Shown piece by piece: positions 20,121 through 56,400 of a stretch of 64,000 nt of DNA. The notes beneath the pieces are model-generated. The model had not been told where the DNA came from. It did no database searches and was given only the letters and a program-made list of their open reading frames with translations. Numbering within the stretch: position 1 is the stretch's first letter; each line of letters opens with the position of its first letter. Location of the stretch: assembly GCF_036013525.1 (NCBI RefSeq), contig NZ_CP107853.1, positions 558,001 through 622,000 of the forward strand, written 5' to 3'. The position numbers and the translations under genes are program-made. This DNA is from Nonomuraea sp. NBC_00507 (GTDB lineage Bacteria > Actinomycetota > Actinomycetes > Streptosporangiales > Streptosporangiaceae).

Positions 20121-20222
20121 AAGAGGCCCGTCACCGCGTTTCCACTGGTGACGGGCCTCTTGCCGCTGGTGTGGCAGGTGCAAGGTTCGACCTTACGTAC
20201 GCTGAGCCGACGGTTTTACCAG
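20121..20222 (-). repeat. tRNA-Tyr 3'-half plus terminator scar, copy A
   Basis: On the minus strand this reads from the GTA anticodon (GTAAAACCGTCGGCTCAGC), through a degraded T-arm and ACCTGCCA acceptor strand, into a hairpin made of AAGAGGCCCGTCACC and its complement. No 5' half of the tRNA precedes it. Several T-arm bases differ from copies C and D, so it cannot be a working tRNA. Best explained as an attachment-site remnant. Confidence 0.75.
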
Positions 20223-20294
20223 CGCGTGACCGTTCCGGTCGAGAGACCGCCCTCTCCCTGCGGCATGACGATGTTTCACTGGCGCAAAGTCCAT

Positions 20295-20325
20295 GATCAT
20301 TGCACGCATATTGCACGATGACCGC
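20295..20325. repeat. 31-base dispersed repeat, copy 1
   Basis: GATCATTGCACGCATATTGC continues to CACGATGACCGC; 29 of 31 bases match 32877-32907, and a shorter form lies at 40058-40080. TTGCACG occurs twice, about one helical turn apart. Confidence 0.7.
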
Positions 20326-20338
20326 TGAGACAGAACCG

Positions 20339-20737
20339 TCAGACGACGGTGTCCCCCTTCGCTGCGTCTACTGCCGGCGAGCCTGCGGTCTTCCCGAACA
20401 GCAGAGCACAGAGCAGGGCCGTGAGCATGAAGCCGGTCGCCGCAGGGACCGCTATGGAGAGGTAGAGCGAGAGATTCCCATCAGGCACCCAGGAGTCATA
20501 ATCCGGCTGGATGAAGACGACCGTCAGCATGGCGAAGGGCGCCACCAGCCCAACGACCGGCCAGGCAGGCAGGCGGGCCAGCAGCGCGGCCACCATGCTG
20601 AGCGGGAACGGCGCCAGCGCGAACGCCATCGCCAGCTTGAGCTCGGAATCCGAATCACGGGTCGGCCAGTGGAGGAGGAGCAGCAGTAAAAACGCCACCA
20701 CGGCCCCTGCCAAGGCAGACCTCAATAAGAGACGCAC
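20339..20737 (-). CDS. Small integral membrane protein
   Basis: A 132-residue protein with four likely TM helices: AGAVVAFLLLLLLHW, AFALAPFPLSMVAALLARL, PVVGLVAPFAMLTVVFI and LSIAVPAATGFMLTALLCALLF. It starts at GTG 20737 and has no recognised domain. It stands alone beside the scar region. Function unknown. Confidence 0.75.
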   Translation of the reverse strand: MRLLLRSALAGAVVAFLLLLLLHWPTRDSDSELKLAMAFALAPFPLSMVAALLARLPAWPVVGLVAPFAMLTVVFIQPDYDSWVPDGNLSLYLSIAVPAATGFMLTALLCALLFGKTAGSPAVDAAKGDTVV

Positions 20738-20859
20738 AGCGTGATTGTCGAGGATCGGGGGCGGCCAGGTCGATATCCGGGCAGTTGCTCTGCTGAACTT
20801 CGACGATCAGTAAGGGCCGGGTACTACAACGGCCTTCCTGATCATGCATTCTGGAGCGT

Positions 20860-20994
20860 GTGACCACGCCGCAACTCCCCGACCCGCTGCCACACTTCTA
20901 CGATTGCGGCTGCCCGGACATCTACTTCCGCCCAACGTCCATCCTCCGTGAGTTCGTGAATTCTGAAGGGCCGTTGAGCGCGAACCGAGGGTAA
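20860..20994 (+). CDS. Possible short ORF, 44 residues
   Basis: GTG 20860 opens a frame reading TTPQLPDPLPHFYDCGCPDI and ending in TAA. The composition is protein-like and a GGAGC lies close upstream, but no family is recognised and it may be a remnant. Confidence 0.25.
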   Translation: MTTPQLPDPLPHFYDCGCPDIYFRPTSILREFVNSEGPLSANRG

Positions 20995-21025
20995 AGACCA
21001 ACAGAGAGCGCTTCGGGACTTGGGT

Positions 21026-21952
21026 TCACTTCAATGCTGTGCGGACTTTCGCGAAGAAGGCGGAATCCGTCGCCATTCGTACAAGGAACTGCTGGTGAGC
21101 ATAGCTACCCATCCCGGAGAGCCAGGTCGTCTCAGGTAGTCGCCGCAGTGCGAGGACGGTCTCGCGCGGCTTCTGACCTGGCCGGACGATGTACATGGCC
21201 TCGCTGATGGCGCCGGGCAGCGAGCCGCCCTTGGTGCCGATGAGGAGCGTGTCGGGATCGGCGCCGGGCTGGCGCATCGGCCATTCCAGATGCCGGCTCG
21301 CCGTCTTGTCCGTCCTGAGTCCGGCGAGCACTCTGCGCAGAACGCCAGGTTCGATGCGGGTCACGGTTTCGCTCCAGGCAGCCTGCTGGGCAAAGCCGGG
21401 AAGCGTGAGCCGCACCGGTTTTCCGGCCTTGACGTAGTTCTTCATGCAGACGTCGGCGGGGAGCGTGCAGCCACCGAAAGCACGGAGCACCTCGCCGTTG
21501 ATGGTGCTGACGCGAGTTTGCGCGATCTTGCGCAGCGCGCCGGGGCCGAGGCGGTCGCGCAGCAGGTCGGCGGCGGCGTTGTCACTCTCTTCGATCATGG
21601 CGGAGACGAGCTGATCGAGCGTGACGCTCGTACCGGGCTTGAGTCGTTGCAGCGCCGCTTCGTGGGCGCCGCCATCGGTGCCGGGCAGGTGGTAGGAGTT
21701 CCACAGGGCCACGGAGACGTGTTCGTCCGGCTTGGTCTTTCCCTGGCGGACGGCGTCGGTGTAGGCGGCGAGGTGGATGATCTTGATGGCCGACGCCACG
21801 GGGGCGAGGCGGTCGGCATGGTGGCTGATGCCCTGCGTGACCAGCGCGACGTCGTCGGGATGAGCGCGGATGTAGGCGAGTACGGCCTCGGCGTCCGTGA
21901 GGTCATCGGGGGCGGCGGGCATCGGGGCTGCCAGCAGGGGAGCCAGGAGCAT
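21026..21952 (-). CDS. Secreted serine hydrolase, class A beta-lactamase-like
   Basis: About 308 residues. The fold's motifs are present in order: SAIK (Ser-x-x-Lys, residue ~54), ESDNA (the SDN loop, ~123) and GTKGGSLPG in place of KTG (~245). The N-terminus from ATG 21952 is hydrophobic (MLLAPLLAAPMPAAPDD) but lacks basic residues. The frame stays open upstream to a CTG that overlaps the stop of the preceding regulator (CTGA) and would add RSSRKVGLLA, giving a normal signal peptide. The start is therefore uncertain. It may be a beta-lactamase or a peptidoglycan-type hydrolase. Confidence 0.85.
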   Translation of the reverse strand: MLLAPLLAAPMPAAPDDLTDAEAVLAYIRAHPDDVALVTQGISHHADRLAPVASAIKIIHLAAYTDAVRQGKTKPDEHVSVALWNSYHLPGTDGGAHEAALQRLKPGTSVTLDQLVSAMIEESDNAAADLLRDRLGPGALRKIAQTRVSTINGEVLRAFGGCTLPADVCMKNYVKAGKPVRLTLPGFAQQAAWSETVTRIEPGVLRRVLAGLRTDKTASRHLEWPMRQPGADPDTLLIGTKGGSLPGAISEAMYIVRPGQKPRETVLALRRLPETTWLSGMGSYAHQQFLVRMATDSAFFAKVRTALK

Positions 21953-21996
21953 GGCGAGCAGTCCAACCTTTCGAGATGATCGGTCAGTTACCGCGT

Positions 21997-22302
21997 TCAG
22001 CCGCGAGGGGTGCCCTCGGTGATCTGCCGGAGTATGGACGTGTAGCTCTGGAAGGCGTCGCGCCCTTCGTCGGTCAGCGCCAGCCAGGTTCGAGGGCGTT
22101 TGCCGACGAAGCCTTTCGTCACCCGTACGTAGCCCGCCTTCTCCAGCGTTTGGATGTGCTTGGACAGCAGCGAGTCGCTGACCTCGATCGTGTCTCTCAG
22201 GAAGCCGAACTCAGCCGTTTCCGCCGCCGCGAGCATGGCCATGATGGACAGCCGCACCGGGGCGTGGATGATCTCGTCGAGCGCGTGCCGGGGATGGCTC
22301 AC
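21997..22302 (-). CDS. Winged-helix transcriptional regulator (HTH_34/PadR-MarR-like)
   Basis: A 101-residue DNA-binding protein. IHAPVRLSIMAMLAAAETAEF opens the winged helix, and SDSLLSKHIQTLEKAGYVRV is the recognition region, followed by a wing with KRPRTWLALTDEGR. This is the short one-domain type found fused or adjacent to membrane proteins. Its ATG overlaps the stop of the membrane protein upstream (ATGA). The beta-lactamase-like gene follows directly, so the three form a sensor/regulator/enzyme operon. Confidence 0.9.
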   Translation of the reverse strand: MSHPRHALDEIIHAPVRLSIMAMLAAAETAEFGFLRDTIEVSDSLLSKHIQTLEKAGYVRVTKGFVGKRPRTWLALTDEGRDAFQSYTSILRQITEGTPRG

Positions 22303-22742
22303 TGGTCATCCGTGGAGCGGAACATGCGCACCGCGCCATACAGCAGGGGGGCGCTTGCGATCAGGGCGATCAGTACACCGGCCACCGCCCACAGAGGGCC
22401 TGGCTCCTGCGGGTGCAGGAACATGTTGTAGAGCGCCCCGATCACGGTCGTCCCAACGAACGCCGCGGTGACGGAGAACGAGAGCCGGTAGTGCCGCCGG
22501 TCGTAGACGCGCTGGCGGGAGATGTGAATGAACCCGGCCACGGTAAGGGCGCCGATTGCCAGAGTGGCGTAATTCTTGACCGTTGCGGGGCCGAGCAGCG
22601 TGACCAGCCAGTAGCCGGTGACTCCGAGCCACATCCCCAGGTAGAAGCGCGCGACCCGTCGGCTGGACTTCCGCACTGCGCCCTGCGCGCGGTCCACTTC
22701 GCGAAGGGCGGCTTCCGCTGACAAGTCGTCATGTTCCGGCAT
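22299..22742 (-). CDS. Membrane protein in a regulator operon
   Basis: A 147-residue protein with a charged N-terminus (residues 1-30) and four TM helices (FYLGMWLGVTGYWLVTLL, YATLAIGALTVAGFIHI, VTAAFVGTTVIGALYNMFL, VAGVLIALIASAPLLYGAV). It overlaps the winged-helix regulator. Proteins of this shape commonly accompany HTH_34-type regulators and may sequester or modulate them. No catalytic motif is seen. Confidence 0.85.
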   Translation of the reverse strand: MPEHDDLSAEAALREVDRAQGAVRKSSRRVARFYLGMWLGVTGYWLVTLLGPATVKNYATLAIGALTVAGFIHISRQRVYDRRHYRLSFSVTAAFVGTTVIGALYNMFLHPQEPGPLWAVAGVLIALIASAPLLYGAVRMFRSTDDQ

Positions 22743-22762
22743 GTTTCCTCCAGCTCACATTC

Positions 22763-22785
22763 TTGACTCAAAAGAGAGTACTCAA
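22763..22785. promoter_or_regulatory. Operator candidate upstream of the membrane/regulator/hydrolase operon
   Basis: TTGACTC and its near-complement GTACTCAA flank an A/G-rich spacer, 21 bases upstream of the operon's first ATG. The stretch is AT-rich against the GC-rich background. Probably bound by the operon's own winged-helix regulator. Confidence 0.5.
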
Positions 22786-22859
22786 CTTCTGTTCAAGTAT
22801 CCAGAGATGAATGGATCACCCCAGATGGGGTGTCAGCCCACATAAGCCCAAAACCCACA

Positions 22860-22881
22860 TTGAGTGGATCTTGAGTGGATC
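22860..22881. repeat. Tandem 11-base repeat
   Basis: TTGAGTGGATC occurs twice in direct succession about 90 bases beyond the 3' end of the recombinase gene. It could be a binding site or slippage product; no function can be assigned. Confidence 0.5.
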
Positions 22882-22969
22882 CCTACTGGTGGACAGCCGT
22901 TGGCGCTGAGAACGATCTTGCTAGGGGTGCCAGCTGGCAGAACGGGATGCAGGGGTGGCGAACTGCTGG

Positions 22970-23923
22970 TCAGCGTCGCGCGAGTGCTGCGTACGCGGTG
23001 GAGCGGCCGATTTTGAGGGTGCGGGCGGCCTCGGTGACCGAGACGCCGTCGTCGACCAGGCGGCGTAGGGCAGCCAGTTCGGCGGGCCCGATCGCGCGAG
23101 GCCGTCCGGTCTTCTTCTTGCCGGGCAGCATCGCGCCGGTGGCTTCGCGGCGTTTGGCGGCGGCGATGCCCTCCGCCTGGCGCTCAGCGCGCAACTCCAG
23201 TTCGTATTCGGCGGCTGCGGCCAGGACCGCGAACATGAAGCGGCCCTCCTTGGTGTCCAGGTCGAAGTTCTCGGTGAGGCTGATGACCTTCACGCCGCGC
23301 TCGCGCAGCTCGTTGGCGGTGGTGAGGACGTGCGCAGCGGAGCGGCCCCATCGGTCGGACTTCCAGAACTTGACGGTGTCACCGGCCTTGGCGACGGTCA
23401 GGATCCGCTGCCACTCTGGCCGGTTGGTGCCACGCTTGCCCGACAGCTTTTCGGTGAACAACCGGTCGTATCCGGATTCCTCGATCGCGTCGAGCTGGAG
23501 CTGGGGGTTCTGGTCGCGGGAGGAGACCCGCACGTAGGCGTAGGTTCGGCCGGTCTCGGTGGCTTGGGCGCGGTCAGCCTGAGTGAACAAGGCGGAGCAG
23601 CCGGGTCGTCGGCAACGCAGGGCCTCACTGACGTCGGCGGCGTCCCAGACCAGCCCGTCGACGTCCAGAGGGATCCGGGTGGGGTCGCACGCTGCGGCTT
23701 CCCATCCGCTGGTTGTCCCAGGGTGCCCGGTCTTCATTTCGTGGGAGACCACGACGACGTGGGCGTACTTGTCCTTGGTCGTGTCGGGCTGCTTGAACCA
23801 GGACGCGTCGCGCATCGCGGCACGAAGGCGCCCACAGCCCAGCAGCGGAGTGCCGTGCCGCAGGCCTGCGAGGTCGTCGGGCCACTCGACGGGTTCAGGA
23901 CGCCGGGCCACGGTTAAATCCAC
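22970..23923 (-). CDS. Serine recombinase with extra N-terminal domain
   Basis: A 317-residue protein. Residues ~130-270 are a resolvase/invertase catalytic domain: [20 protein letters not shown] has the nucleophile Ser, followed by [16 protein letters not shown] and [36 protein letters not shown] is the long E helix, and [20 protein letters not shown] is the C-terminal HTH. The first ~130 residues are not part of the resolvase fold; they contain [15 protein letters not shown] and a Cys pair ([10 protein letters not shown]). Codon bias is uniform over both parts, so the extension looks genuinely coding. The GTG start lies inside an NRPS remnant. Confidence 0.88.
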
Positions 23924-24039
23924 ACGAACGGCATGTTGTACGTCGCGCCCGGCCCCTTAAACTGCGAGAGGAACCACAGTCGCAGTTGCGCAAAGGACAA
24001 GGGCACCCGCTCGGGACGCTTGTCGATACGGGTTATCAC
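23914..24039 (-). pseudogene. NRPS condensation-domain N-terminal fragment
   Basis: From GTG 24039 the minus strand reads [20 protein letters not shown] then [13 protein letters not shown] before a TAA. This is the standard opening of a nonribosomal peptide synthetase condensation domain (PLSxAQxRLWFL ... TYNxP). Only ~40 residues survive. It overlaps the recombinase start by ten bases, so the recombinase sequence may have joined here. Confidence 0.85.
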
Positions 24040-24451
24040 GTCAATTCACCCCCGTGCTGCAGGCCGGAGCCTCCGTGATTGCCGTCGACGACGCAGAAGT
24101 CGTTGCCCTCCGGATCCCGCATCCAGGCATGGGCCTCGAACCGCTCCTTGACGGTCGCACCCCGGCCGGTTAGGCGGTTGATCTCCGCCAGCCAGTCCGC
24201 GGACAGATGTCGAAATGCACGGGTGTCATCGACCGCGGCTCGAGCTCGACCTTCTGGAAGCAGACCTCGAGGTGGGGTCCGTCGAGGATGACGCCCGGAT
24301 CGGTTTCTGGCGTGTAGCCGAGCGAGGCGAGGCGGGCGATCTCCTCGTCGTCGTAGGGCCGGATGTCGAACTCGTCCAGCGCGGCCGCCCAGAACCGGGC
24401 CAACGCGGACGGCGTCTCGCAATCGAAGACGACCTGCTTGAGACGTGCCAT
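24036..24451 (-). pseudogene. VOC (glyoxalase-like) family protein, frameshifted
   Basis: ATG 24451 starts MARLKQVVFDCETPSALARF and reads through to SMTPVHFDIC at ~24205. There the correct continuation (SADWLAEINRLTGRG ... MRDPEGNDFCVVDG) moves to another frame, consistent with a one-base change. The two halves together give a full-length ~135-residue VOC protein with the metal-site His/Glu positions of the family. It may instead be a sequencing error, since both halves are otherwise intact. Confidence 0.8.
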
Positions 24452-24667
24452 ACAGGGCTCCTACCGTGTGCGGTCTCTGAACCGTCAACGGATCAGTCTT
24501 GCTCAGCCCCTCCTCGTTGTCCAGAAACGTATACCTTTCCGGACACCTTAGCGACCAGGCGCGACACCGTCCAGAAACCTCTATCCAGCTGGCAGCTCCC
24601 CCGGGCAGCGACACGTGTGGGCGCGCCGTACAGACGAGGTCTGTTAGTCACGACATAGCATGACCTG

Positions 24668-25537
24668 ATGGGCATTTCCCGGCTCTCCACAAATGCGCGG
24701 CAGCGGCGCAGTTCCGAGATGCGCGCGTTCCTCCAGTCGCGGCGAGCCCGGGTGACGCCCGCTGACGTGGGCATGCCGGCAGGCGAAGGCCGCCGTACAC
24801 CCGGGCTGCGGCGGGAGGAGGTGGCGGTGCTCGCCGGCGTAGGAGTGTCCTGGTACACCTGGCTCGAACAGGGACGCGACATCAACGTCTCCGCCGACGT
24901 CTTGGACGCCATCGCCAGGGTGCTGCGCCTGGAGCCCGCCGAGCGCGAGCACCTGTACCTCCTCGCCGGCCTCAATCCGCCGCAGGCGGCGCCGTCCGAA
25001 GGCCGGGTCCCCGATGCCGTGCGGCGACTGCTGGAGGGCTGGCTGCCGCGGCCCGCGTACGTCATCGACCGGCACTGGAACGTTCTCGGGGTCAACCGCG
25101 CGGCGGAGATCGTGTTCCAGTGCAACGAGTACGACCACAACTGCCTGGTCAGCTTCTTCACCAACGCCCGCTACCGTGCGGCAGTCGTGGACTGGCACGA
25201 CGCGGCGCGAGCGATGGTCGGCCTGTTCCGGGCGGACGCCGCCCGCTACCTGGACGATCCCGAATTCGGCCGCCTGGCCGCGGACATGTGTGCCGCGAGC
25301 CCCGCCTTCGCCGAGATTTGGGCGGAACTCCCCGTGGGCGGTCCCACCCACGGCACCAAGGCCCTGGAGATTACCGGCCTGGGGACGCTGACCTTCGAGG
25401 CCACCACTCTGCCGCTGCCCGAACTGCCCGGCCACCGCCTGTGGCTGCACACCCCCGCACCCGGGACGGGAACGGAGGCCCTGCTGGAGCGCTTGGTGGT
25501 GGTGTCAGACCCAGGTTCAGCCAACACTGCCGCGTAA
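24668..25537 (+). CDS. XRE family regulator with MmyB-like ligand domain
   Basis: A 289-residue regulator. TPGLRREEVAVLAGVGVSWYTWLEQGRD is the HTH with its family-specific W-Y-T-W-L-E-Q-G motif. LEPAEREHLYLLAGL links to the C-terminal PAS-like MmyB domain (YVIDRHWNVLGVNRAA, then HGTKALEITGLGTLTFEATT), which binds fatty-acid-like ligands in structurally studied members. It is followed 26 bases later by an SDR gene in the same direction, the first of three regulator/dehydrogenase modules in the window. Confidence 0.93.
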   Translation: MGISRLSTNARQRRSSEMRAFLQSRRARVTPADVGMPAGEGRRTPGLRREEVAVLAGVGVSWYTWLEQGRDINVSADVLDAIARVLRLEPAEREHLYLLAGLNPPQAAPSEGRVPDAVRRLLEGWLPRPAYVIDRHWNVLGVNRAAEIVFQCNEYDHNCLVSFFTNARYRAAVVDWHDAARAMVGLFRADAARYLDDPEFGRLAADMCAASPAFAEIWAELPVGGPTHGTKALEITGLGTLTFEATTLPLPELPGHRLWLHTPAPGTGTEALLERLVVVSDPGSANTAA

Positions 25538-25563
25538 GCTCCCGCCGCTGGAGGATCGTCGGT

Positions 25564-26316
25564 ATGAAGCGATTCACGAACAAAACAGTTCTGATCACCG
25601 GCGGCACCAGCGGCATCGGGTTCGCGACCGCGCGCAGGCTTCTCGACGAGGGCGCGTACGTCGTCATCATCGGCCGCGACCAGGCCCGCCTCGACACCGC
25701 GGCAGAACGCCTGGGCTCCGAGCGGGTCCTGCCCGTCCGCGCGGACGTCAGCGTTGACGCCGACCTCGACCTCCTCGTGCGACGCATCGAGACCTGGCGC
25801 GGCGCCCTCGACGCGGTCTTCGCCAATGCCGGTATTGCGGACTTCAGGCCAGAGTTCACCCCGAAGGACTTCGACCACACCGTCGGAATCAACTTCAAGG
25901 GAGTGTTCTTCACGATCCAAAAGGCGCTGCCGCTGATGGGCGACGGAGGCGCCGTCGTCATCAACGCCTCTTGGACCCTGCACCGCGGCCTCCCGGCGGC
26001 CTCGATCTACGCCGCCAGCAAGGCTGCCGTGCACAATCTCGCCCGCACGCTCGGCACTGACCTCGCGCCGCGTGGCATCCGCGTCAACTCCGTCAGCCCC
26101 GGCTACATCGAGACCGATATGTACCGGTCCGCCATCGACCCCGATGCGGAGGCCCGCATCATGGCGGAGGTGCCGCTCGGCTCGCTCGGCCATCCGGACG
26201 ATGTCGCCGCTGCCGTCGCCTTCCTGGTTTCGGACGACGCGTCGTACATCACCGGTCAGGACCTCGTTATCGACGGCGGCCTCGTGGCAGCGGCGCCCCT
26301 CGGGCTGCGCCTTTGA
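25564..26316 (+). CDS. Short-chain dehydrogenase/reductase
   Basis: A 250-residue classical SDR from ATG 25564. The motifs are TGGTSGIGFATA for cofactor, NAGIAD for the central strand, and YAASKAAVHNLART for the catalytic Tyr/Lys. RVNSVSPGYIETDMY and the C-terminal ITGQDLVIDGG are standard. It follows the MmyB-type regulator and is likely its target. The 3' end abuts transposase remnants. Confidence 0.94.
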   Translation: MKRFTNKTVLITGGTSGIGFATARRLLDEGAYVVIIGRDQARLDTAAERLGSERVLPVRADVSVDADLDLLVRRIETWRGALDAVFANAGIADFRPEFTPKDFDHTVGINFKGVFFTIQKALPLMGDGGAVVINASWTLHRGLPAASIYAASKAAVHNLARTLGTDLAPRGIRVNSVSPGYIETDMYRSAIDPDAEARIMAEVPLGSLGHPDDVAAAVAFLVSDDASYITGQDLVIDGGLVAAAPLGLRL

Positions 26317-26347
26317 CAGCCATACAACAGCCGTAGCAGGCCCACCG

Positions 26348-26855: not shown

Positions 26856-26912
26856 GCAGCGCTGCCCGCCCGGGAACTCGTCACCGCCCTCAAGTCGGTC
26901 AGAGGCAGGTGG

Positions 26913-31529: not shown

Positions 31530-32086
31530 TCACCGGTAGCCCATCTGCGGTCCCGATTTCCATGGCCCTGACCGGTGCGGAGGCATCCCGATCCACGACT
31601 CGTAGTCAGCCGCTGCCGAGCATCGACCCTCGCGACGCGCCGCTCCGAGCGGCGCCGCATACGCGTCCTCGGGCAAATCGGCCGAGGGGTCCGACGTCTG
31701 GCCGGTGCAGGCCACGATCCGCCTCCACACCTCCGCAGAGTCGGCACGACAGCGGATGTGGCCCTTGAACGGGCGGCTGGAAGCCGTGGACGAGCACAGC
31801 TGTCTCCTGTACCTCGGCGCGGAGACCCCGCGGATGCTCGTCTCCCTGCTGACCATGCTCGACGTGGACTTCACCATCGAGTCGCCCGCCGGATTCGCCG
31901 AACACCTCCACACCATCGCGGCACGATACGAACGCGCGGCGATCACCTCTGCGCCAGCAGAGGGATCGGTGTGAGGGACCCGGCCCTCGGGTTCGCAGTA
32001 GGGCGCAACTGGTCGTACCCTCTCTCCTCCCAGATGGTCCCTTGATCCATTGGAAACGATCAACCTTAGAGGGCCGGACACAAAGC
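31530..32086. other. Intergenic region with WYL-regulator remnant
   Basis: About 550 bases without an intact gene. A WYL-type fragment occupies 31650-31974 (separate entry); the remaining sequence shows no protein-like frame. It ends at tRNA-Tyr scar copy B. Confidence 0.6.
31650..31974 (+). pseudogene. WYL-domain regulator (YafY-like), C-terminal fragment
   Basis: The frame reads VQATIRLHTSAESARQRMWP, LNGRLEAVDEHSCLLYLGAE, MLVSLLTMLDVDFTIESPAG and FAEHLHTIAARYERA, the WCX C-terminal extension of YafY-type regulators. There is no HTH or WYL core upstream, so only the last third survives. Confidence 0.75.
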
Positions 32087-32144
32087 GAGAGGCCCATCAC
32101 CGCGTTTCCGCGGGTGACGGGCTTCTTGCCGCTGGTGTGGCAGG
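32087..32144 (-). repeat. tRNA-Tyr 3'-half plus terminator scar, copy B (truncated)
   Basis: The hairpin GAGGCCCATCACC ... GGTGACGGGCTTC and the acceptor-end sequence TGGTGTGGCAGG match copies A, C and D, then homology stops before the T-arm. The stem has acquired mismatches. It is an older or partly deleted copy in the same orientation. Confidence 0.7.
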
Positions 32145-32840: not shown

Positions 32841-33234
32841 GGAAAAGCCTTGTTCGACCTGAGGAAACGGCCTCAAGATCATTGCCCGTATATTGCACGA
32901 TGACCGCCGGGACCGGAACAGCCATGCGACTGAACACCGTGACCGGAGTACAGGTCAAGGCTGGTCGAGTGGCCGTAGTCGTGATTCACCGCTGATCTCC
33001 CGCCATTCTGGCACGCCTCTAACACGCGATCGCTGAAGGCGGCCCAGCATTGTGATCGTCTGGGGCAGACGCCGGTGTGCTGGATCTGTCTACCCTGTCA
33101 GCGTGGGCACCGACATCTACGCAACGCGCTGCTGTGTGCCCAGGACATGCTCGCGCCGCCTGGACAACCAACTCGATCGAGGCGCACTTCGGATCCTTGC
33201 GCCAGTTCGCCCTGGCCTACTCCGACCATCCCCA
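32841..33234. other. Intergenic region with repeat and transposase remnant
   Basis: About 390 bases between the acetyltransferase and the XRE regulator. It contains the 31-base repeat at 32877-32907 and the IS630-type fragment starting ~33160. Nothing else is recognised. Confidence 0.6.
32877..32907. repeat. 31-base dispersed repeat, copy 2
   Basis: GATCATTGCCCGTATATTGC followed by ACGATGACCGC differs from 20295-20325 at two positions. Both copies lie downstream of a tRNA-Tyr scar. Confidence 0.7.
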
Positions 33235-38817: not shown

Positions 38818-38875
38818 TCAGGCCGGTGAAATCACTCGACTTTGGCCATTCTCGCGATTGGCCCCGAAACGCAGA

Positions 38876-38895
38876 AGAGGCCCCGAAGGGCCTCT
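38876..38895 (-). terminator. Rho-independent-type terminator of the RsbW-like gene
   Basis: AGAGGCCC and GGGCCTCT form an 8-base stem; read on the minus strand the loop is TTCG, a stable tetraloop. It lies 30 bases past the stop of the ATP-binding protein gene and is followed by a short T-containing stretch. Confidence 0.75.
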
Positions 38896-38924
38896 GAGCT
38901 GCACTTACTGGGCTGGTACCTCGG

Positions 38925-40057: not shown

Positions 40058-40080
40058 GATCATTTCACGTATATTGTACG
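40058..40080. repeat. Dispersed repeat, short copy 3
   Basis: GATCATTTCACGTATATTGT plus ACG matches the first 23 bases of the 31-base repeats at 20295 and 32877 at all but two or three positions. Confidence 0.6.
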
Positions 40081-41110: not shown

Positions 41111-41578
41111 AACGATCTCGCTTACGGCCCTGCCCAGCGCTGTGTGTGCGTCCGCACGAAGTAAGACCCGTGATCGCGTGCCAGATGCCACGGGAAACCA
41201 GGGGGAATCACAGGAACTCACCGGCGATCAACGCGAGAGGCCCGTCACCGCGTTTCCGCTGGTGACGGACCTATTCCCGCTGGTGTGGCAGGTGCAAGGT
41301 TCGAACTTGCGTAGGCTGAGCCGACGGTTTTGCAGCGGGCTGACGTTCCCGACTCCATTAGGTTTCCGACCTCGGGGGCGCGGCTCTCACCCATCCCCTA
41401 CCAGGGAAGATCATCCCGCATATACTCCGCGAGACAGAGCCAGCCACGATCCCCCGGGAACCGCGGATCTCTCGGGAGAAAGGGCCTTCCACCTGCAGAG
41501 GATCGGCGGTTTGAACCTCGGGTGGGCGGTAGACCGGGAAGACCTGATGGCCACCCGCGGCATCAGGTCACGCCACCC
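41111..41578. other. Intergenic scar region
   Basis: About 470 bases with no gene. It holds tRNA-Tyr scar copy C (41235-41334) and the 17-base sequence CAGAGCCAGCCACGATC (41437-41453) shared with 12318-12334. The rest shows no protein-like frame. Confidence 0.6.
41235..41334 (-). repeat. tRNA-Tyr 3'-half plus terminator scar, copy C
   Basis: On the minus strand, AAAACCGTCGGCTCAGCC leads through a perfect T-arm (GCAAG-TTCGAAC-CTTGC) and ACCTGCCA into the hairpin region. Over ~100 bases it differs from copy D at only a few positions, two of them in the hairpin. The anticodon position reads GCA instead of GTA, and no 5' half is present. Confidence 0.8.
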
Positions 41579-42217
41579 TCATGATCGCTGACTGATGGCG
41601 CCGACGAGTAGGGGCCCGTCGAGGACGCTCGGAGTGAACACCACGCCAGTGATCTTGGCCGCCAGCAAGAACGCACGCGAGATCCTGTTGGCGTACATGT
41701 CATCCCACGTCGCCTCCCATGCCTCTCCATCCAACTTCTCCGGAGGCAAACCGGCTTCACGCATGAGCTCGTTGATCCGGTCCGGGTCGCCGCCCCACCG
41801 AGTGCCTGGCAGGTGCGGCGTGAAGCTGGTGACGACCTTGCCATCTACCGCGTACACGAAGCTGTCCTCCGCATAATCGTGCCGTCCCACGGCCGCCGCC
41901 TCACATCCCCGGGACAGCCCGATCAACGGCCCGGCCAGCGTCGCCTGGAAACCCTCCAGTTCAACGGCCACGCCCCACTCACCGACCTGGACAACACCAA
42001 CATAGTCGTCGTCGGTCATCCCTATGGATTCCCAGACCTTCACACAGAGTTCGTGGAAGGTCATCTCCCGCCCTGGGCGTCCGGCCCCGAAGCGGTGCAA
42101 CACCTCGACAGGTTCGAGCCCGCGAAAAAAGGACACACAGAAAATCTCACCAAGCAGATCGTCGCGGTCTCCTGGCGAGGCTTCCAACCAACGGAACGGG
42201 GCGAGGGGATCGGCCAC
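41579..42217 (-). CDS. DUF6461-like protein
   Basis: A 212-residue soluble acidic protein. GTG 42217 has GGAGG just upstream. It matches the N-terminal half of the 4922-6130 protein: FCVSFFRGLEPVEVLHRFGA, GEWGVAVELEGFQA, and the end TGVVFTPSVLDGPLLVGAIS. Function unknown. It is followed upstream on the same strand by a SUKH-type gene. Confidence 0.82.
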   Translation of the reverse strand: MADPLAPFRWLEASPGDRDDLLGEIFCVSFFRGLEPVEVLHRFGAGRPGREMTFHELCVKVWESIGMTDDDYVGVVQVGEWGVAVELEGFQATLAGPLIGLSRGCEAAAVGRHDYAEDSFVYAVDGKVVTSFTPHLPGTRWGGDPDRINELMREAGLPPEKLDGEAWEATWDDMYANRISRAFLLAAKITGVVFTPSVLDGPLLVGAISQRS

Positions 42218-49023: not shown

Positions 49024-49053
49024 GTGACCAGCTTAGCCGTGCCGAGATAATTA

Positions 49054-49099: not shown

Positions 49100-49117
49100 A
49101 AGCTAGGGTCGGCGACC

Positions 49118-50761: not shown

Positions 50762-51139
50762 GTGAGGCACGATCGCTACCCTGGCCAGCTCGCTCTCCCC
50801 CTCAGCTTCCCGCATCGCCGCTTCCGGTTATGGAGCTACGTACCCTCGCACAGCGAGCTCGTACTTCGGACGGAGTTCGAACAGGACACGCCCCACATCG
50901 AACTGCTCCTCAAATCCGTCCGCCAGATCGACCTTCCGGTGACCATGAACGATGGTCTCGTCGTCGCTATTGACGACTCTCCAAGCGGTGGATCGGAAGC
51001 TGTGACCTTCCTGTTCAGCAATGATCATTTCTCCGGCAAGGTCGTCGCCGGCCACCTCTTCCTGCGCCAAGAACAGCGATCACGATACAGTCCCTTCTCG
51101 CTCTTCCACGGAAACCTGCGGAGTGAGTTCACGCGTTAA
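50762..51139 (+). CDS. Hypothetical beta-rich protein
   Basis: About 125 residues from GTG 50762 (VRHDRYPGQLALPLSFPHRR). Alternating hydrophobic strands (FRLWSYVPSHSELVLRTEF, IELLLKSVRQIDLPVTMNDG, VTFLFSNDHFSGKVVAGHLF) suggest a small beta-sandwich or barrel. No family is recognised. It lies just upstream of the broken integrase and shares its direction, so it could be element cargo. Confidence 0.5.
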   Translation: MRHDRYPGQLALPLSFPHRRFRLWSYVPSHSELVLRTEFEQDTPHIELLLKSVRQIDLPVTMNDGLVVAIDDSPSGGSEAVTFLFSNDHFSGKVVAGHLFLRQEQRSRYSPFSLFHGNLRSEFTR

Positions 51140-51149
51140 TACGCGCACC

Positions 51150-52082
51150 TCACCCAGCCACCTACGGGCCAGGGGGCTGGAGGGCCACACCACACCGCTC
51201 GGCGCCCTGATCGAGCACGGGTCAGGAGCCGTGCTGACGCGCCGCGTGCTGGCCCGCATCAGCCAGACCAAGCAAGGAAACCCCGCGGCCGCGAACACCT
51301 CCAACCGCAAGCGCATGGTCCTGAACAACGCCATGGAGTACGCCCAGGAGATCGGCGAACTGTCGTCGAACCCACTCAAGGCGGTGAAGTGGGCCAAGCA
51401 GCGCACCCTTACGACGGTGGACCCGCGCGTCGTCATCAACATCAGCCAGGCTCGCCGCTTCCTCAAGGCAGTGGAGAATCACAGCGGGCGAGGCAGGCGC
51501 ATGAAGGCGTTCTTCGGATGCATGTACTTCGCCGCGCTCAGGCCCGAAGAGGTCGTGGACCTGCGAGAGGAACACCTCGTCAGCCTTCCTGTGGACGACT
51601 GGGGAGAGATGCGGCTGACCAACGCCGAGCCGCGCTCAGGCAGTCGTTGGACAAACAGCGGCAAGATCCGGGAACGTCGGGAACTCAAGCACCGAGTCGT
51701 AGGCGAGATACGGTGAGTGCCCATCCACCCCGAGCTGTCCAACATGCTGATCGAGAACCTCAAGGAATTCGGAGCCGGCCCCGGCGGACGAGTCTTCATC
51801 GGCCCCCACGGCGGCCTGATGACCGACCGCGCCTACCTCAAGGTCTTCCACGAAGCCAGAGCACAAGCGTTCGAACCGCCCGAAGCCCGGTCGCAGCTCA
51901 TGGAGGTCCCGTACGCCCTACGTCATGCCGCCGTCTCCACATGGCTCAACGCCGGCGTGCCAGCGCCCCAGGTGGCCGAATGGGCAGGACACAGCGTTGA
52001 CGTTCTTCTACGCGTCTACGCCAAATGCATCTACGGACAGCAGAGCGAGGCCATGCGCCGCATCTGGGATGCCACACGGTGA
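51150..52082 (+). pseudogene. Tyrosine recombinase/integrase, N-truncated with in-frame TGA
   Basis: The frame contains the core-binding domain (NTSNRKRMVLNNAMEYAQEI, ELSSNPLKAVKWAKQ) and the catalytic domain with the first Arg in FAALRPEEVVDLREEHL. At 51714-51716 a TGA follows VVGEIR; the same frame continues VPIHPELSNMLIENLKEFGA and contains YALRHAAVSTWLNAG (R-H), AEWAGHSV (H) and LRVYAKCIYG (Tyr). CGA to TGA would explain the stop. The arm-binding N-terminus is also missing. It was probably the enzyme of one tRNA-targeted element. Confidence 0.88.
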
Positions 52083-52359
52083 AGTCCTTGCTCCTGCCGG
52101 TCCGGCGGGGGGAACCGGCTGGCGCGGCGCAGGAGATCATCGGGCAGGTGTGGGCCTGCATGCGGAGGTAGTCGTCAGCGCGCACCCCGAGATCGTTTTA
52201 TCGGGGTGTTTCATCCGTCCACCTGTTCGCACCGACCTATGAAACGACGTTCGCCCTGGACACGTCTCGCCGCGAGCGCCGCTTCATAGGTGAACGTCTA
52301 AGAAACAGGCGACCCGGCGAGTTCGCATATCCAAAGCGCGCTTGATCGGTGAAGGACGA
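52083..52359. other. Intergenic region, nothing recognised
   Basis: About 280 bases between the integrase and TPR pseudogenes. A small inverted sequence (GATCAAG/CTTGATC around 52341-52366) overlaps the end of the TPR remnant; no gene is seen. Confidence 0.4.
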
Positions 52360-52930
52360 TCAAGCTTGCCTTTCCGCAAGAAAGTCGATCTGCCTGGCGG
52401 TTCTGCGCGTGTCCGGGTGGTCGGGGCCGAGGATCCGCTGCCGGGCGGTGAGGACATCGTGGTACTCGGCCTGCGCCCCGGCATAGTTCCCCCCGCGCCT
52501 ACATCCGGGCGATTTCGTGCCGGGTGGCCAGTGTGGACGGGTGGTCGGGGACGAGGTCCCGCAGCCGGGCGCTGAAGACCTCGCCGTATTCGGCTGCAGC
52601 CGCAGCGTAAGATCCCTGGCTTGCCCGGTACCGGGCCGCCATGTGCGCAGCGTCTGCTGCCGCCCCGATCGTCTCGTCTGAGCTGTCCGGCAGAGCGCTG
52701 AGGCTGTTCAGCACTACGGCAGCGTGCGGCGCCAGCAGCTGCCAGGCCGACCACGTCGGCGGGTCCTCGGGGGTCGCCGGTCTCCCCGGCGGCTTCTGCT
52801 GCGGCCTTCAGCAGGCGGGCGGCCAGTTCCGTAAAAGCCAGCAGGTCCGGGCCAGGTGCCGGGCGGCTGGTGTCGCGTACCAGCGGGTGCAGCCGCGCGA
52901 CCGGCAGCGCGTCCAGCCCGGCCGCGGAGT
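52360..52930 (-). pseudogene. TPR-repeat (NB-ARC/TPR-type) protein, C-terminal remnant in several frames
   Basis: Starting near 52930, one minus-strand frame reads DALPVARLHPLVRDTSRPAP and LLAFTELAARLLKAAAEAAG. A second reads VVLNSLSALPDSSDETIGAA, AEYGEVFSARLRDLVPDHPS and TLATRHEIARM. A third reads AEYHDVLTARQRILGPDHPD and ends in TGA at 52360. The DHP-TL-TRHEIA pattern is the kinesin-light-chain-like TPR of actinobacterial STAND proteins. At least two frameshifts separate the parts. Confidence 0.75.
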
Positions 52931-52936
52931 GCCAAG

Positions 52937-53548
52937 TTAACTTGACCCTTCCTCCCGTCGTCGGTCATCGCGGGCTGCGGCGGGGATGGCGTTGTCGATG
53001 AGGACGGCGGCGATGGCGGCGGCGGCGGGGAAGGCGTCGGCGTTGAGGACCCGGGTGCGGGCCGCGGCGCCGTCGATGAGCAGCGCGAGCTGCTCGCCGA
53101 GCTGTTCAGGGTCGGCGGCGCCGGCTTCGCGGGCGGTGTCGGCGAGCCGCGCGGCGACGGCTTTCTTGTAGTCGCGTGCGTACTGGGATGCGGGGTGCTG
53201 GGGGTCGTGGAGTTCGACGGCGGCGGCGATGTAGGGGCACAGGGGGGTGGTGGGGGGGATGTCGAAGGCGGCGAGGAGCCGTTCGCGGGGCGTGAGGTCG
53301 GTGCGGTCGAACACGCCGGACAGAACGGAGGGGTCGAACCGGCGCAGGTACTCGGCGACGAGTTCGTCCTTGCCGGTGAAGTGCTGGTACGCCGTGCGTT
53401 TGGACACCTGGGCCGCCGCGCAAAGCTGGTCCATGCCGGTGCGGTTGATGCCCTGCTCGCGAAACAGTTGCTGGGACGCGCTGAGGATGCGCTCGCGGGC
53501 GCCCCGGCCGCGGCGGCGGCCCTGGGGGCCCTTCTCCAACTCCGTCAC
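52937..53548 (-). CDS. TetR family transcriptional regulator
   Basis: About 203 residues from GTG 53548 (VTELEKGPQGRRRGRGARER). RILSASQQLFREQGINRTGM and AAAQVSKRTAYQHFTGKDEL are the TetR HTH; CPYIAAAVELHDPQHPASQY lies in the ligand domain. The open frame extends upstream across the promoter, so the GTG choice rests on the usual spacing to the HTH. It is divergent from the SDR/F420-reductase cassette and likely represses it. Confidence 0.92.
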   Translation of the reverse strand: MTELEKGPQGRRRGRGARERILSASQQLFREQGINRTGMDQLCAAAQVSKRTAYQHFTGKDELVAEYLRRFDPSVLSGVFDRTDLTPRERLLAAFDIPPTTPLCPYIAAAVELHDPQHPASQYARDYKKAVAARLADTAREAGAADPEQLGEQLALLIDGAAARTRVLNADAFPAAAAIAAVLIDNAIPAAARDDRRREEGSS

Positions 53549-53578
53549 GGGTCCATGGTACCCGAGCTGGGTAACGAT

Positions 53579-53644
53579 CGGTGTACATAGTTTGCGCCCC
53601 GGCCGCGCGCCCCGTACCGTAAGCACACAGAGCGGTGTACATAA
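53579..53644. promoter_or_regulatory. Divergent control region with repeated operator half-sites
   Basis: CGGTGTACATA occurs at 53579-53589 and 53633-53643, 54 bases apart, in the spacer between the TetR and SDR genes. GTGTAC is itself nearly palindromic. The copies are good candidates for TetR binding. Confidence 0.65.
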
Positions 53645-53691
53645 CGCCGTCATCCCAGGTGCGCACGGCACCACCGGCCTAAAGGAGCAAC

Positions 53692-54426
53692 ATGGGAAAG
53701 CTTGACGGCAAGGTAGCGGTCATCACCGGCGGCACCACCGGCATGGCGCTGGCCGGCGCGAAGCTGTTCGTCGACGAGGGAGCGCACGTCTTCATCACCG
53801 GCCGCCGCCAGGACGCCCTGGACGAGGCCGTGAAGCAGATCGGCCGCAACGTCACCGGCGTCCAGGGCGACGCCGCCGACCTGAACGACCTGGACCGCCT
53901 GTACGACACCGTCAAGCGGGAGAAGGGCAGCCTCGACGTGCTGTGGGCCAGCGCAGGCGGGGGCGAGCCCGCCCCGCTCGGCGAGATCACCGAGGCCCAG
54001 TTCGACACCTGGTTCGGGCTCAATGCCCGCGGCACCCTGTTCACCGTCCAGAAGGCCCTCCCGTTCTTCAACGACGGCGGCTCCATCCTCATGACCGGCT
54101 CCAACGCCTCCCTCGGCGCCTTCCCCGGCTGGAGCGTCTACGCCGGCAGCAAGGCCGTCCAGCAGGCCTGGGCCCGCGTCTGGCTCAACGAGCTCAAGGA
54201 CCGCCGCATCCGCGTCAACGTCCTGACCCCCGGCCAGGTCGCCACCGCCAAGCAGGAAGAACTCTTCGACGAGGCCACCAAGCGCCAGTTCGAGTCCCTC
54301 ATCCCCCGCGGCCAGATGGGCCGCCCCGACGAAATCGCCACCGCCGCCCTCTTCCTCGCCTCCGACGACTCCAGCTACGTCAACGGCATGGAACTCGTCG
54401 CCGACGGCGGCACCACCGCCATCTAA
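53692..54426 (+). CDS. Short-chain dehydrogenase/reductase
   Basis: A 244-residue classical SDR. The cofactor motif is TGGTTGMALAGAKLF; the third position departs from TGxxxGIG, having Met-Ala. ASAGGG replaces NNAG, and the catalytic Tyr/Lys are in VYAGSKAVQQAWA. RVNVLTPGQVATAKQEELF and SSYVNGMELVADGGTT complete the fold. ATG 53692 is preceded by AAGGAG. It is the first gene of the TetR-controlled cassette with an F420-dependent-type reductase. Confidence 0.94.
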   Translation: MGKLDGKVAVITGGTTGMALAGAKLFVDEGAHVFITGRRQDALDEAVKQIGRNVTGVQGDAADLNDLDRLYDTVKREKGSLDVLWASAGGGEPAPLGEITEAQFDTWFGLNARGTLFTVQKALPFFNDGGSILMTGSNASLGAFPGWSVYAGSKAVQQAWARVWLNELKDRRIRVNVLTPGQVATAKQEELFDEATKRQFESLIPRGQMGRPDEIATAALFLASDDSSYVNGMELVADGGTTAI

Positions 54427-54459
54427 ACCGAACAACACTCAACCAGGGCAGGACATCTC

Positions 54460-55083
54460 ATGAGCAACATCAGCATCATCGGCACCGGGAACATGGCCCG
54501 CACCATCGGAGCGCGGGCGATAGCGGGCGGCAACACCGTCGAGGTCATGGGCCGCGATCAGTCCAAGGCCGCTGACCTGGCCAAGGCTCTCGGCGGCGGC
54601 GCCACGACGGGAGAATGGGGTACCGCCCCGGCCGGGGACATCGTCATCGTGGCCCTGTTGTACGACGGCGTCGTGCCGGTCGTCGCCCAGTACGGAGACG
54701 CTCTCGCGGGCAAGGTCATCGTCGACATCAGCAATCCCTTCAACTCCACGTTCGACGGGCTTGCCCACCGCGAGGAGACCTCGATCGCGCAGGAAGTCGC
54801 CAAGGCGGCCCCGGCCGGCGCCAGCGTGGTGAAGGCGTTCAACACCATCTTCCGCCATGTCCTGGAGAAGGGCCGGCCCGACGTCTTCATCGCTGGCGAT
54901 AATGCGCAGGCCAAGGCAAGTGTGGAGGCGTTCATCGAGAGCCTCGGGCTACGCCCGCTGGACGTCGGCGGCCTGAAAATGGCGCACTGGCTGGAAGGAG
55001 CGGGCGTGGTCACGGTGGGCCTCGCCAACCACGGGGTGGGGAACTTGGACTTCGCCCTCAGCATCACCGAACTTCCCGTCTGA
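54460..55083 (+). CDS. NADPH:F420 oxidoreductase-like protein
   Basis: A 207-residue NAD(P)-binding protein of the F420-dependent NADP oxidoreductase family. ISIIGTGNMARTIGARAIAG is the dinucleotide motif, DIVIVALLYDGVVPVV and KVIVDISNPFNSTFDG the next strands, and VVKAFNTIFRHVLEKGRPDV the substrate-proximal segment. It would pass hydride between NADPH and coenzyme F420 or a related deazaflavin. The adjacent, decayed LLM gene belongs to an F420-using family, which supports this role. Confidence 0.9.
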   Translation: MSNISIIGTGNMARTIGARAIAGGNTVEVMGRDQSKAADLAKALGGGATTGEWGTAPAGDIVIVALLYDGVVPVVAQYGDALAGKVIVDISNPFNSTFDGLAHREETSIAQEVAKAAPAGASVVKAFNTIFRHVLEKGRPDVFIAGDNAQAKASVEAFIESLGLRPLDVGGLKMAHWLEGAGVVTVGLANHGVGNLDFALSITELPV

Positions 55084-55118
55084 GCAAACGGTTGACGGAT
55101 CACCGAAAGGACTCGCCA

Positions 55119-55711
55119 ATGAAGCTTGGTTTCACACTTCCCATAGTCGGGTTACCAGCAGCGCCGCTGGCCTGAGCGCGTTCTGCCGCGGGATCGAGGA
55201 GCAGCCGTACCCGCCGCTGATGAAGCGTCACCTCGACCCGGTGCTGCTGTGGACCGTCGCCGCGACGGCGACCAGCCGGGTGCGGCTGAATGCCAGCACG
55301 CTCAGCACCTTCTACTACGAGCCGCCGCACCTGGCCCGGATGCTGACCACGCTCGACGTGCTCAGCGACGGCCGTCTCGAGGTCGGCGTGGGACTCGGGT
55401 GGACGAAGGACGAGCACGACATCTCCCCCACCGCGGACTGGCGCCGGCGCGGGCGGATGCTCGATGACCTGCTGGCGTTCCTGCACGAGTGGTGCACGGC
55501 CAACCCGGCGTCCTGGGACAGCGAGTTCTTCTCGCTGCGGCCGGTCCACGCCGACCTGCGCCCGGCGCAAGCGGGCGGGCCGCCCATCTGGATCGGCGGC
55601 GCCAGCGAGGCCGCGACGCGCCGGGTCGGCCGCAGCGCCATGCGAAGCGTCTCCCACCTTTCAACGGAGTCGGCAGTGTATCGAGATGATCCGGCTCGTT
55701 CGCGGCGATGA
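55119..55711 (+). pseudogene. LLM-class F420-dependent oxidoreductase, internally deleted and frameshifted
   Basis: ATG 55119 starts MKLGFTLPIVG, the usual LLM N-terminus, but stops after LPAAPLA. In another frame EEQPYPPLMKRHLDPVLLWT, RVRLNASTLSTFYYEPPHLA, TLDVLSDGRLEVGVGLGW and AGGPPIWIGGASEAATRRVG follow, which are core LLM/luciferase-like motifs. About 40 residues between the two are missing and the C-terminus is lost. It was probably the third gene of the TetR-controlled cassette. Confidence 0.85.
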
Positions 55712-55878
55712 CGGAAGGAATGCCGTCTTCGCGCAAATTTCGGCGTCTTAGTTCACATATGCATGTCTAGACGTGCTGACTTACACGTGACTTGCAGCTG
55801 ACTCACCACGTTGCGGTCACCGGGGACGCCGGCTCTCCCGCCCCGGCGCGGAGGGACGTTCCAGTCGCCATGGGCTGC

Positions 55879-56223
55879 TCACGTGAAGGGCGGAGAGCAC
55901 TCCTGCAGCTTGGCGTTAGTTGTGCAGTGGTGTCTTCCCGCAAGCCGTCGAACTGCGAAGTGGGTGGTCGGCCGTAGCCCGGGAGTCCCGGGCCAACCTG
56001 AGTGGTCGTGCACAGGAACTTCGGACATCCGTGTGCAGACGGCGCGCTGGTAGCGGGCGCGGCCGAGGAAGGCGTCGACCTCGGCTTCGACGGCGGTCTG
56101 GATGATCAGGCGGGCGCCGAGCCGGGCGACGTCCTCGATGACCTCGACCAGGTCACGATCGGCGGCGAACAGGGCATCGATCTCGGCACGGATGGCCTGG
56201 ATAGGCGATACTCGACGGGTCAC
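55879..56223 (-). pseudogene. IS256 (Mutator-type) transposase, N-terminal fragment
   Basis: GTG 56223 opens VTRRVSPIQAIRAEIDALFA, DLVEVIEDVARLGARLIIQT and AVEAEVDAFLGRARYQRA, the typical N-terminus of IS256-family transposases (E-EVDAFLGR-RYQR). After ~56040 it departs from the family and ends at 55879. No DDE catalytic domain is present. Confidence 0.8.
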
Positions 56224-56301
56224 GAGCGTGGGGCCTTTCTTCGTGCGAACTTGGCGGTTCAACACGGAACCACGCTCGTGATCCTGGACCGGGCACAGAG
56301 C

Positions 56302-56400
56302 GAGAGGCCCGTCACCGCGTTTCCGCTGGTGACGGGCCTCTTCCCGCTGGTGTGGCAGGTGCAAGGTTCGAACTTGCGTAGGCTGAGCCGACGGTTTTAC
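56302..56400 (-). repeat. tRNA-Tyr 3'-half plus terminator scar, copy D
   Basis: The best-preserved copy. On the minus strand it runs GTAAAACCGTCGGCTCAGCC, a perfect T-arm (GCAAG-TTCGAAC-CTTGC), ACCTGCCA, then a hairpin of GAGGCCCGTCACC and its complement. The variable arm and T-arm are those of a class II tRNA-Tyr. The base before the anticodon region diverges from other copies, and no 5' half precedes it. Confidence 0.85.

Follow-up and report, generated by a model that had tools for sequence, protein, structure and literature searches.

A row of tRNA-Tyr 3' halves in Nonomuraea sp. NBC_00507, probably left by decayed integrative elements, and the repeats at the element ends

The 64,000-nucleotide stretch considered here (the window) spans C1:558,001-622,000 of the 12.89-Mb genome of Nonomuraea sp. 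NBC_00507, which consists of two contigs (C1 and C2). It contains displaced 3' parts of a tRNA-Tyr gene, each followed by a hairpin (Table 1), which we discuss as remnants of actinomycete integrative and conjugative elements (AICEs). When the 99-bp unit of tRNA half plus hairpin was searched against the whole genome, nine minus-strand matches with E ≤ 1e-14 were found, spanning C1:578,122-703,007; eight further matches had E ≥ 0.002, four of them being the palindromic hairpin on the opposite strand at the same places and four being short and located elsewhere. One of the nine belongs to the complete tRNA-Tyr gene, which lies 89 kb past c4, the last copy in the window, and the other eight (c1 to c8) are remnants, all downstream of the complete gene and on its strand. 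Seven of them retain the 3' half, and c2 consists of the acceptor end and the hairpin only. A preliminary description of the window had listed four minus-strand copies lacking a 5' half; alignment and ARAGORN bore out all four, but four more remnants of the same array lie outside the window. ARAGORN called zero tRNA genes in the window, and in 184 kb around the array its sole call was the complete tRNA-Tyr gene.

Aligned with the complete gene, the half-bearing copies become identical at the anticodon loop (CTGTAAA), which is where homology had been said to end. The 3' halves match it with 5/51 mismatches in c1, 1/51 in each of c3 and c4, 6/51 in c5, 0/51 in c6 and c7, and 0/44 in c8. Another tRNA-Tyr gene on the chromosome was ruled out among the eight other class II tRNA genes of C1, which are all Ser or Leu. 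A second tRNA-Tyr gene, unmatched by the half-unit search, does sit on contig C2 (198,862 bases), in a row of 35 tRNA genes on one strand (C2:147,712-152,902; L231:7712-12902), and the chromosomal gene may therefore not be the only tRNA-Tyr gene of the cell. Arrays of tRNA genes on plasmids are reportedly the topic of a published study (PMC12803027). The blocks of about 12, 9 and 15 kb into which the copies had been said to divide the accessory DNA need qualifying, because traces without a tRNA half lie inside the 9- to 15-kb blocks (Table 1), which are thus partly composite.

Two classes of hairpin follow the tRNA half: T behind the complete gene and c1 to c5, and I behind c6 to c8. Predicted folding energies are −39.7 kcal/mol (z −7.5) for T and −24.9 kcal/mol (z −2.6) for I. 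In an alignment of 33 T sequences, 96.3% of the cells pair versus 89.5% after shuffling, 8 of 17 pairs show changes on both sides, and 0 of 500 shuffles attained any of five covariation measures; the alignment was selected by hand, with six of 34 T-labeled tails dropped and four unlabeled tails and c2 added. Folded singly, five of the six dropped tails form a hairpin (z −3.5 to −6.7), and L104, which belongs to another family, does not (z −0.5).

The array holds four traces of tyrosine integrases of the IntA and IntB lineages, all broken, two of which adjoin c7 and c8. No intact IntA or IntB was found in this genome, so that the array looks like a fossil here. Remnants of Xis (excisionase; C1:648,338-648,487), Nudix and GntR proteins are also present. 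The best full-length IntB match elsewhere in the genome (55% identity, C1:3,430,505) adjoins a tRNA at 3,432,043, and the integrases IntA and A2 are 45-47% identical to IntB. A 23-residue IntB-like match beside c2 (E 8e-4) was too weak to be used.

In related genomes (designated by G numbers), elements at tRNA-Tyr look complete. The one in G033 encodes a tyrosine integrase, an HTH_17 protein, RepSA (1.5e-104), FtsK_SpoIIIE, GntR-UTRA and Nudix proteins, and that in G028 encodes an integrase, DUF3987, Prim-Pol and, at the tra position, a 726-residue protein without a Pfam hit. The integrase alignment covers 80 loci among the matches listed, and the best 15 IntB relatives of these (75-97% identity) all carry a tRNA-Tyr half and an I hairpin adjoining int; ARAGORN called a complete tRNA-Tyr gene in 11 of the 15 and none in L144, L147, L150 and L155. 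Over all 80 loci the half is found in 18, namely the best 15 and three more distant ones. Sixty loci were scanned for tRNAs, and the 45 other than the best 15 gave Arg (26), Ser (3), Lys (1), Met (1), Tyr (1) or no tRNA (13). In a plasmid collection IntB matched nine records, the best at 55.9% identity; one of them, an 11.9-Mb record, carries the name Nonomuraea gerenzanensis.

The class of the hairpin mostly follows the integrase lineage. At right ends with an integrase trace, I occurs with IntB in 15/15 and T with IntA or A2 in 8/11 (Fisher 1e-4, from counts made by hand and with a p value uncorrected for relatedness). Beyond this count, T accompanies IntA or A2 in G004, G021 and G015 and a weak IntB-like piece in G052, and in two genomes of other genera (G063 and G056) an IntB 84-85% identical carries the I hairpin. 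The hairpin therefore moves together with the attachment site, in which it lies between the tRNA half and the convergent int gene. The duplication of the terminator together with the half, which had been thought unusual, is not so, as the hairpin trails the half in both integrase lineages, in other genera too. By this reading an essential tRNA gene would have its terminator swapped for that of the latest element to arrive.

Similar layouts recur across the genus. A 161-bp query of tRNA plus hairpin matched 110 of 118 genomes, our own included, and gave more than one copy in 40 of 52 same-genus relatives; at most seven candidates were scored per genome, and the copy counts are lower bounds. In a set of 15 genomes made up of few contigs, 50 matches came from 14 genomes and consist of 14 complete or proximal copies and 36 extra copies. 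Of the extra copies, 33 share a contig with the complete gene, 31 of these lying downstream on its strand, and three are on other contigs. The upstream flank of tRNA-Tyr aligned over 474 to 9,011 bases in 20/20 loci of relatives, and no distal flank common to all relatives was seen among the ten flanks compared. DNA distal to c1 was matched at 90-98% in 5 of 53 other same-genus genomes and thus provides an anchor: its distance from the tRNA is about 125 kb here versus 44 kb in G118, 33 kb in G050, 27 kb in G041 and 51 kb in G025, and in G017 the two lie on different contigs. Related strains thus do carry fewer elements between these flanks; as to the empty sites that the preliminary description had proposed to look for, no genome with both flanks and zero elements was seen. 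G016 has one copy and no IntA or IntB match in 20 kb, and it still carries a T-type right end. As an alternative distal landmark secE proved useless: it is 487 kb off in this genome, and most genomes have it on the same side.

Behind the hairpins, and outside the half at the other end of the element, lies a pair of 7-mers separated by four bases (7-4-7, period 11), and the 7-mer varies between elements. Six classes (GYGCAAT, CGGGAT, CGGAAT, CGGCYAA, GTTCCC and GYYGAA) were set by eye before the match between ends was counted; a class-free test needs no classes, and 13 other genomes served as a hold-out. A classed pair was present at 40 of the 51 right ends and at 30 of the 36 left ends of 15 genomes, versus 88 of 1,020 shuffled ends. 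Twenty-five of the 36 intervals from one half to the next were classed at both ends, and 17 of the 25 agreed, with 4.9 expected (0/20000 shuffles) or, when shuffled inside arrays, 9.9 (4/20000); other pairs from the same array agreed in 5/40. The class-free test, run over all 36 intervals, gave a best 18-mer identity of 14.4 for the two ends of an interval versus 13.0 (0/20000). In the hold-out, 16 of 23 intervals were classed at both ends and 10 of these agreed (3.4 expected, 2/20000), other same-array pairs agreed in 1/14, and the class-free values were 14.6 versus 13.0 (0/20000). In the array described here the two ends agree for the intervals tRNA-c8, c8-c7, c7-c6 and c5-c4 and disagree for c6-c5, and the two intervals distal to c4 have no classed right end. 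A search of the window for three of the six motifs gave 2, 3 and 1 matches versus 0 expected, every one of them on the minus strand and within 20,052-56,471. As judged from sequence, the repeats are likely arm-type sites that tag the ends of the elements.

The repeats also covary with the integrase. Among 37 non-redundant integrases, how far apart the N-terminal parts (75 residues) are predicted how far apart the arm 7-mers are when the C-terminal part was taken into account (partial r 0.334, 0/2000 permutations, which leave some relatedness in place), and the reverse relation was weak (partial r 0.102, 273/2000). The input was 67 of the 80 loci and three relatives, and a motif was found automatically in 33 loci and those three relatives; L146, whose motif is doubtful, and seven relatives were added to give 44, and removal of near-identical proteins, L146 among them, left 37. 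Ten relatives had their motifs set by hand, and for three loci a second rule was used. Since N-terminal distance predicts arm distance beyond the C-terminal part, the N-terminal domain fits the role of a putative reader of the arm motif.

Taken together, these data make it very probable that the units of tRNA-Tyr half and hairpin are the right-end attachment sites of decayed elements of the AICE kind, belonging to at least two integrase lineages, which crossed over at the anticodon loop of one tRNA-Tyr gene or of a displaced copy. In relatives, the attachment site of the element is seen to comprise the tRNA 3' half, the hairpin, the period-11 repeat pair and the convergent int. Integration would set the half and hairpin of the element behind the 5' half of the host, leaving the tRNA whole with a new hairpin, and would displace the old half and hairpin to the far end of the element; the layouts are as expected from this. 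Repeated integration would place halves in a row on one strand, and such a row is seen. The hairpin, whose stem covaries, would likely terminate the tRNA transcript and that of the convergent int alike, and the repeat pair would likely be an arm-type site for the N-terminal domain of the integrase. As the elements have one core in common and differ in arm pair, the latter would identify the two ends of a single element. Several same-orientation attachment copies do lie beside one complete target gene, and the region is likely a large decayed array of AICE remnants and one case of a genus-wide hot spot. This suggests that a large accessory region sits inside a tRNA-Tyr array.

Several observations weigh against this reading. 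The RepSA, FtsK, DUF3987 and Prim-Pol proteins of the relatives had zero matches at E ≤ 1e-5 in the 184-kb array region. An integrase at the tRNA 3' end (intact in relatives and broken here), an excisionase beside int (the HTH_17 protein in G033 and a remnant here) and putative arm-type repeats on both sides of the core are present, and a replication gene and an FtsK/SpoIIIE transfer gene, both found in the elements of relatives, were not detected; assignment of the array to the AICEs would accordingly rest on integrase, attachment sites and relatives, and we regard it as likely remnants of AICEs rather than intact ones. Two half copies in G026 (C1:3,449,566 and 3,649,233) lie on the same strand 454 and 654 kb upstream of the complete tRNA-Tyr gene, the sole same-contig exceptions to the downstream layout in the 15-genome set. 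No interval cut exactly at two halves was found between any two genomes compared. Three of the 11 T ends carry IntB traces (in G010 a 61-residue piece also similar to IntA DNA, in G025 a piece, and in G051 a 32-residue piece behind an I vestige), and in G060, of another genus, an IntB piece lies behind a T-like hairpin. The end repeats were unlike in 8/25 intervals and in 6/16 of the hold-out, c6-c5 among them; such intervals may be fusions or deletions of elements. Finally, the within-array shuffle of the hold-out was weak (6.7 expected, 381/20000), and the shuffles leave some relatedness of the elements.

One possibility for how an integrase chooses among many equal cores, which we put forward tentatively, is an address system: the elements would have the core in common, and each integrase would pick its own two ends by a 7-4-7 arm repeat that varies between elements, is alike at the two ends of one element and is recognized by an N-terminal domain that fits it. 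A matching tag at both ends would help to tell neighboring elements apart; if such a system exists, crowding would select for novel arm motifs, and DNA would be stranded in the array once a matching pair is lost. There is about an even chance that the repeats are instead plain attP arm sites inherited jointly, without discrimination between neighbors, or sites bound by excisionase. The motifs are indeed common to related elements, and the core of pACPL lies between two 21-nt repeats, near-identical and similar to the pSAM2 arm-type sites (PMC3364876). The covariation of the motif with the integrase N-terminus beyond the C-terminus speaks against this alternative, in a comparison confined to the integrase. 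The 28 genomes examined form a natural test series, in which a single tRNA and a single core go with six classes of arm motif and with integrase N-termini that match them.

The order in which the elements arrived is a separate matter, and here a strict version of serial accretion, solely at the complete tRNA gene and with copies older with distance, is unlikely. The complete gene does stand at the proximal end, and in relatives the intact integrases adjoin it. A count against this strict form, and one to be set against the reading offered above as well, is that copy ages do not follow distance: c5 has 6/51 mismatches versus 1/51 in the more distal c3 and c4, and given a mean of six mismatches the probability of at most one is 0.017 for one copy. 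Four of the 15 best IntB loci are moreover at a half without a called tRNA. In addition, G118, a same-species genome of which 80 kb were compared, keeps c2 but lacks c3. It aligns at 95% from upstream up to the tRNA 3' end and then breaks, and the next feature is an IntB element with a 454-residue integrase frame and a rep gene in two pieces. There c2 and its flanks are shared at 95.6% over 1,184 bases, and the place of c3 takes up 0.2 kb versus 2.76 kb here; at the place of C1:598,058-598,064, G118 carries a half and an I hairpin. The 5.3 kb of C1:603,285-608,604 are circularly permuted at 606,158 relative to G118:C1:561,627-567,314, a layout that a circular intermediate would give, or a tandem duplication later lost in part. 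The stretch at C1 655.0-660.6 kb is inverted beside the distal anchor in G118, and most of C1 614-700 kb has no counterpart in the compared stretch. Copy ages out of distance order would follow if elements had entered at displaced copies or if conversion or rearrangement had taken place. Of the serial accretion at one tRNA-Tyr gene proposed in the preliminary description, repeated integration is thus supported (one strand, one crossover point, proximal position of the complete gene, intact integrases of AICEs at this site in relatives and no genome-wide scatter), and a strict one-after-another order is not.

It is very improbable that tandem duplication of host DNA or gene conversion copied the half and hairpin. 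With the complete gene c1 and c5 do share the T hairpin and about 75 bases behind it (81-83% over 173-184 bases), and conversion between halves could account for the unequal ages, but no copy has a 5' half or upstream DNA, all start at the anticodon loop, and integrase genes or remnants lie behind the halves both here and in relatives; as the main explanation this was found wanting. A prophage origin is harder still to credit: phages too use tyrosine integrases at tRNA genes, but IntB matched only five records of a phage collection, at 29-32% identity over under half its length, and the elements of relatives carry RepSA and FtsK. An ordinary interspersed repeat, set beforehand as the refuting case and suggested by the many similar copies, is rejected, since all nine good matches are confined to one strand within 125 kb of 12.9 Mb and nothing comparable occurs elsewhere in the genome.

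SLP1 integrates in a tRNA-Tyr gene. It is an AICE of Streptomyces coelicolor (PMC3364876). Decayed AICEs at a tRNA-Tyr gene, as we read the present array, have a close counterpart at a Streptomyces tRNA-Arg gene, where AICEs and defective AICEs accrete. That tRNA gene has one to three elements, which belong to several families, with identical direct repeats between them, an older remnant, decay of cargo and integrases of 39-88% identity at one site (Choufa et al. 2022, PMC9513070). The Nonomuraea array differs in that eight remnants are spread over 125 kb at tRNA-Tyr, every integrase trace is broken, the hairpin class is linked to the lineage, and the end repeats are element specific and tend to match. 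The tandem AICEs Sav3708/Sav3728 and Fean5518/Fean5534 likewise share one tRNA gene, in one case with different integrase subfamilies, but number two each against eight remnants here; tandem arrays of elements sharing a site have been called inherently unstable (Ghinet et al. 2011, PMC3218068). With pSAM2 and pACPL (PMC3364876) the elements share a core at a tRNA 3' end, two flanking repeats, int-xis-repSA behind attP, an FtsK-type tra gene and Nudix; in pACPL the two 21-nt repeats resemble the pSAM2 arm-type sites bound by the integrase. They differ in that the core here lies in tRNA-Tyr from the anticodon loop onward and in that the repeats are of the 7-4-7 form, with a 7-mer that varies among elements sharing the core. 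AICE accretion at a tRNA is known (PMC9513070, PMC3218068). The extent of the array, the linkage of hairpin class to lineage and, most of all, end repeats that match and are specific to an element had no counterpart in the titles and abstract openings searched, which gave nothing on element-specific arm motifs in tandem arrays; this is no proof of absence in print.

Table 1. Features of the tRNA-Tyr array. Positions are those of the window unless prefixed with C1.
Feature	Position	Strand	Remarks
c1 right-end repeat pair CGGCCAA-TACG-CGGCCAA, likely arm-type site	20052..20070	-	0 expected by chance
c1 hairpin, T class	20122..20161	-	T-class stem covariation
c1, displaced tRNA-Tyr 3' half	20171..20221	-	5/51 mismatches
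Likely arm-type site: GTGCAAT-ATGC-GTGCAAT repeat pair at left end of element on proximal side of c1	20295..20316	-	
c2, tRNA acceptor end and T-class hairpin only	32080..32144	-	common to same-species G118
IntB-type right-end vestige without tRNA half	32844..32900	-	contains repeat pair 32877-32898
I-class hairpin vestige without tRNA half	38862..38910	-	
Repeat pair without tRNA half	40058..40079	-	G118 keeps half and I hairpin at this place
c3 hairpin, T class	41229..41268	-	
c3, displaced tRNA-Tyr 3' half	41285..41335	-	1/51 mismatches; absent from G118
Left-end repeat pair, CGGGAT type, beside c3	41409..41431	-	3 mismatches
Broken IntA-lineage tyrosine integrase	51171..52076 (C1:609,171-610,076)	+	N-terminal part missing, one in-frame stop
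c4 hairpin, T class	56300..56343	-	
c4, displaced tRNA-Tyr 3' half	56352..56402	-	1/51 mismatches
Left-end repeat pair CGGCCAA-TACG-CGGCCAA of c4-c5 interval	56453..56471	-	same class at c5 end, outside window
Glycoside hydrolase family 32 (GH32) protein	56544..60080	-	cargo example in c4-c5 interval
c1-c4 unit matches	C1:578,122; 590,087; 599,235; 614,302	-	in window
c5-c8 unit matches	C1:641,927; 646,201; 650,078; 654,630	-	beyond window
Complete tRNA-Tyr	C1:702,959-703,041	-	unit match at 702,909; outside window
IntA C-terminus trace	C1:634,330-634,545		one stop
IntB trace	C1:648,487-649,849		two frames
IntB trace	C1:653,566-654,397		two frames, without N-terminus
Recurring left-end pair c1/c6	C1:578,159-578,796 and 646,201-646,809		
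Recurring left-end pair c3/c7	C1:599,284-599,468 and 650,078-650,263		
Recurring left-end pair c4/c8	C1:614,359-614,482 and 654,630-654,753		

By eye, the c4-c5 and tRNA-c8 intervals, both of which have CGGCCAA-type ends, look rich in sugar transport genes, and parts of the GH32 gene are about 70% similar to DNA of the tRNA-c8 interval (C1 about 655-663 kb). Near c1 lie genes for a Beta-lactamase2-family protein and a serine resolvase (window 21,026-21,952 and 22,970-23,815). The 1,252-residue protein encoded at L019:12760-16518 (C1:634,760-638,518) has weak AAA/NACHT/nSTAND and WD40-like matches, all below the Pfam cut-offs, and is possibly of a defense type. Genes of the DUF6461 family or their relatives recur around left ends of elements (window 41,579-42,064; L020:4996-5553; C1 near 562,922 and 632,717). 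The left-end sequence families of c1, c3 and c4 reappear in equal order beside c6, c7 and c8 and correspond to three different end-repeat classes.

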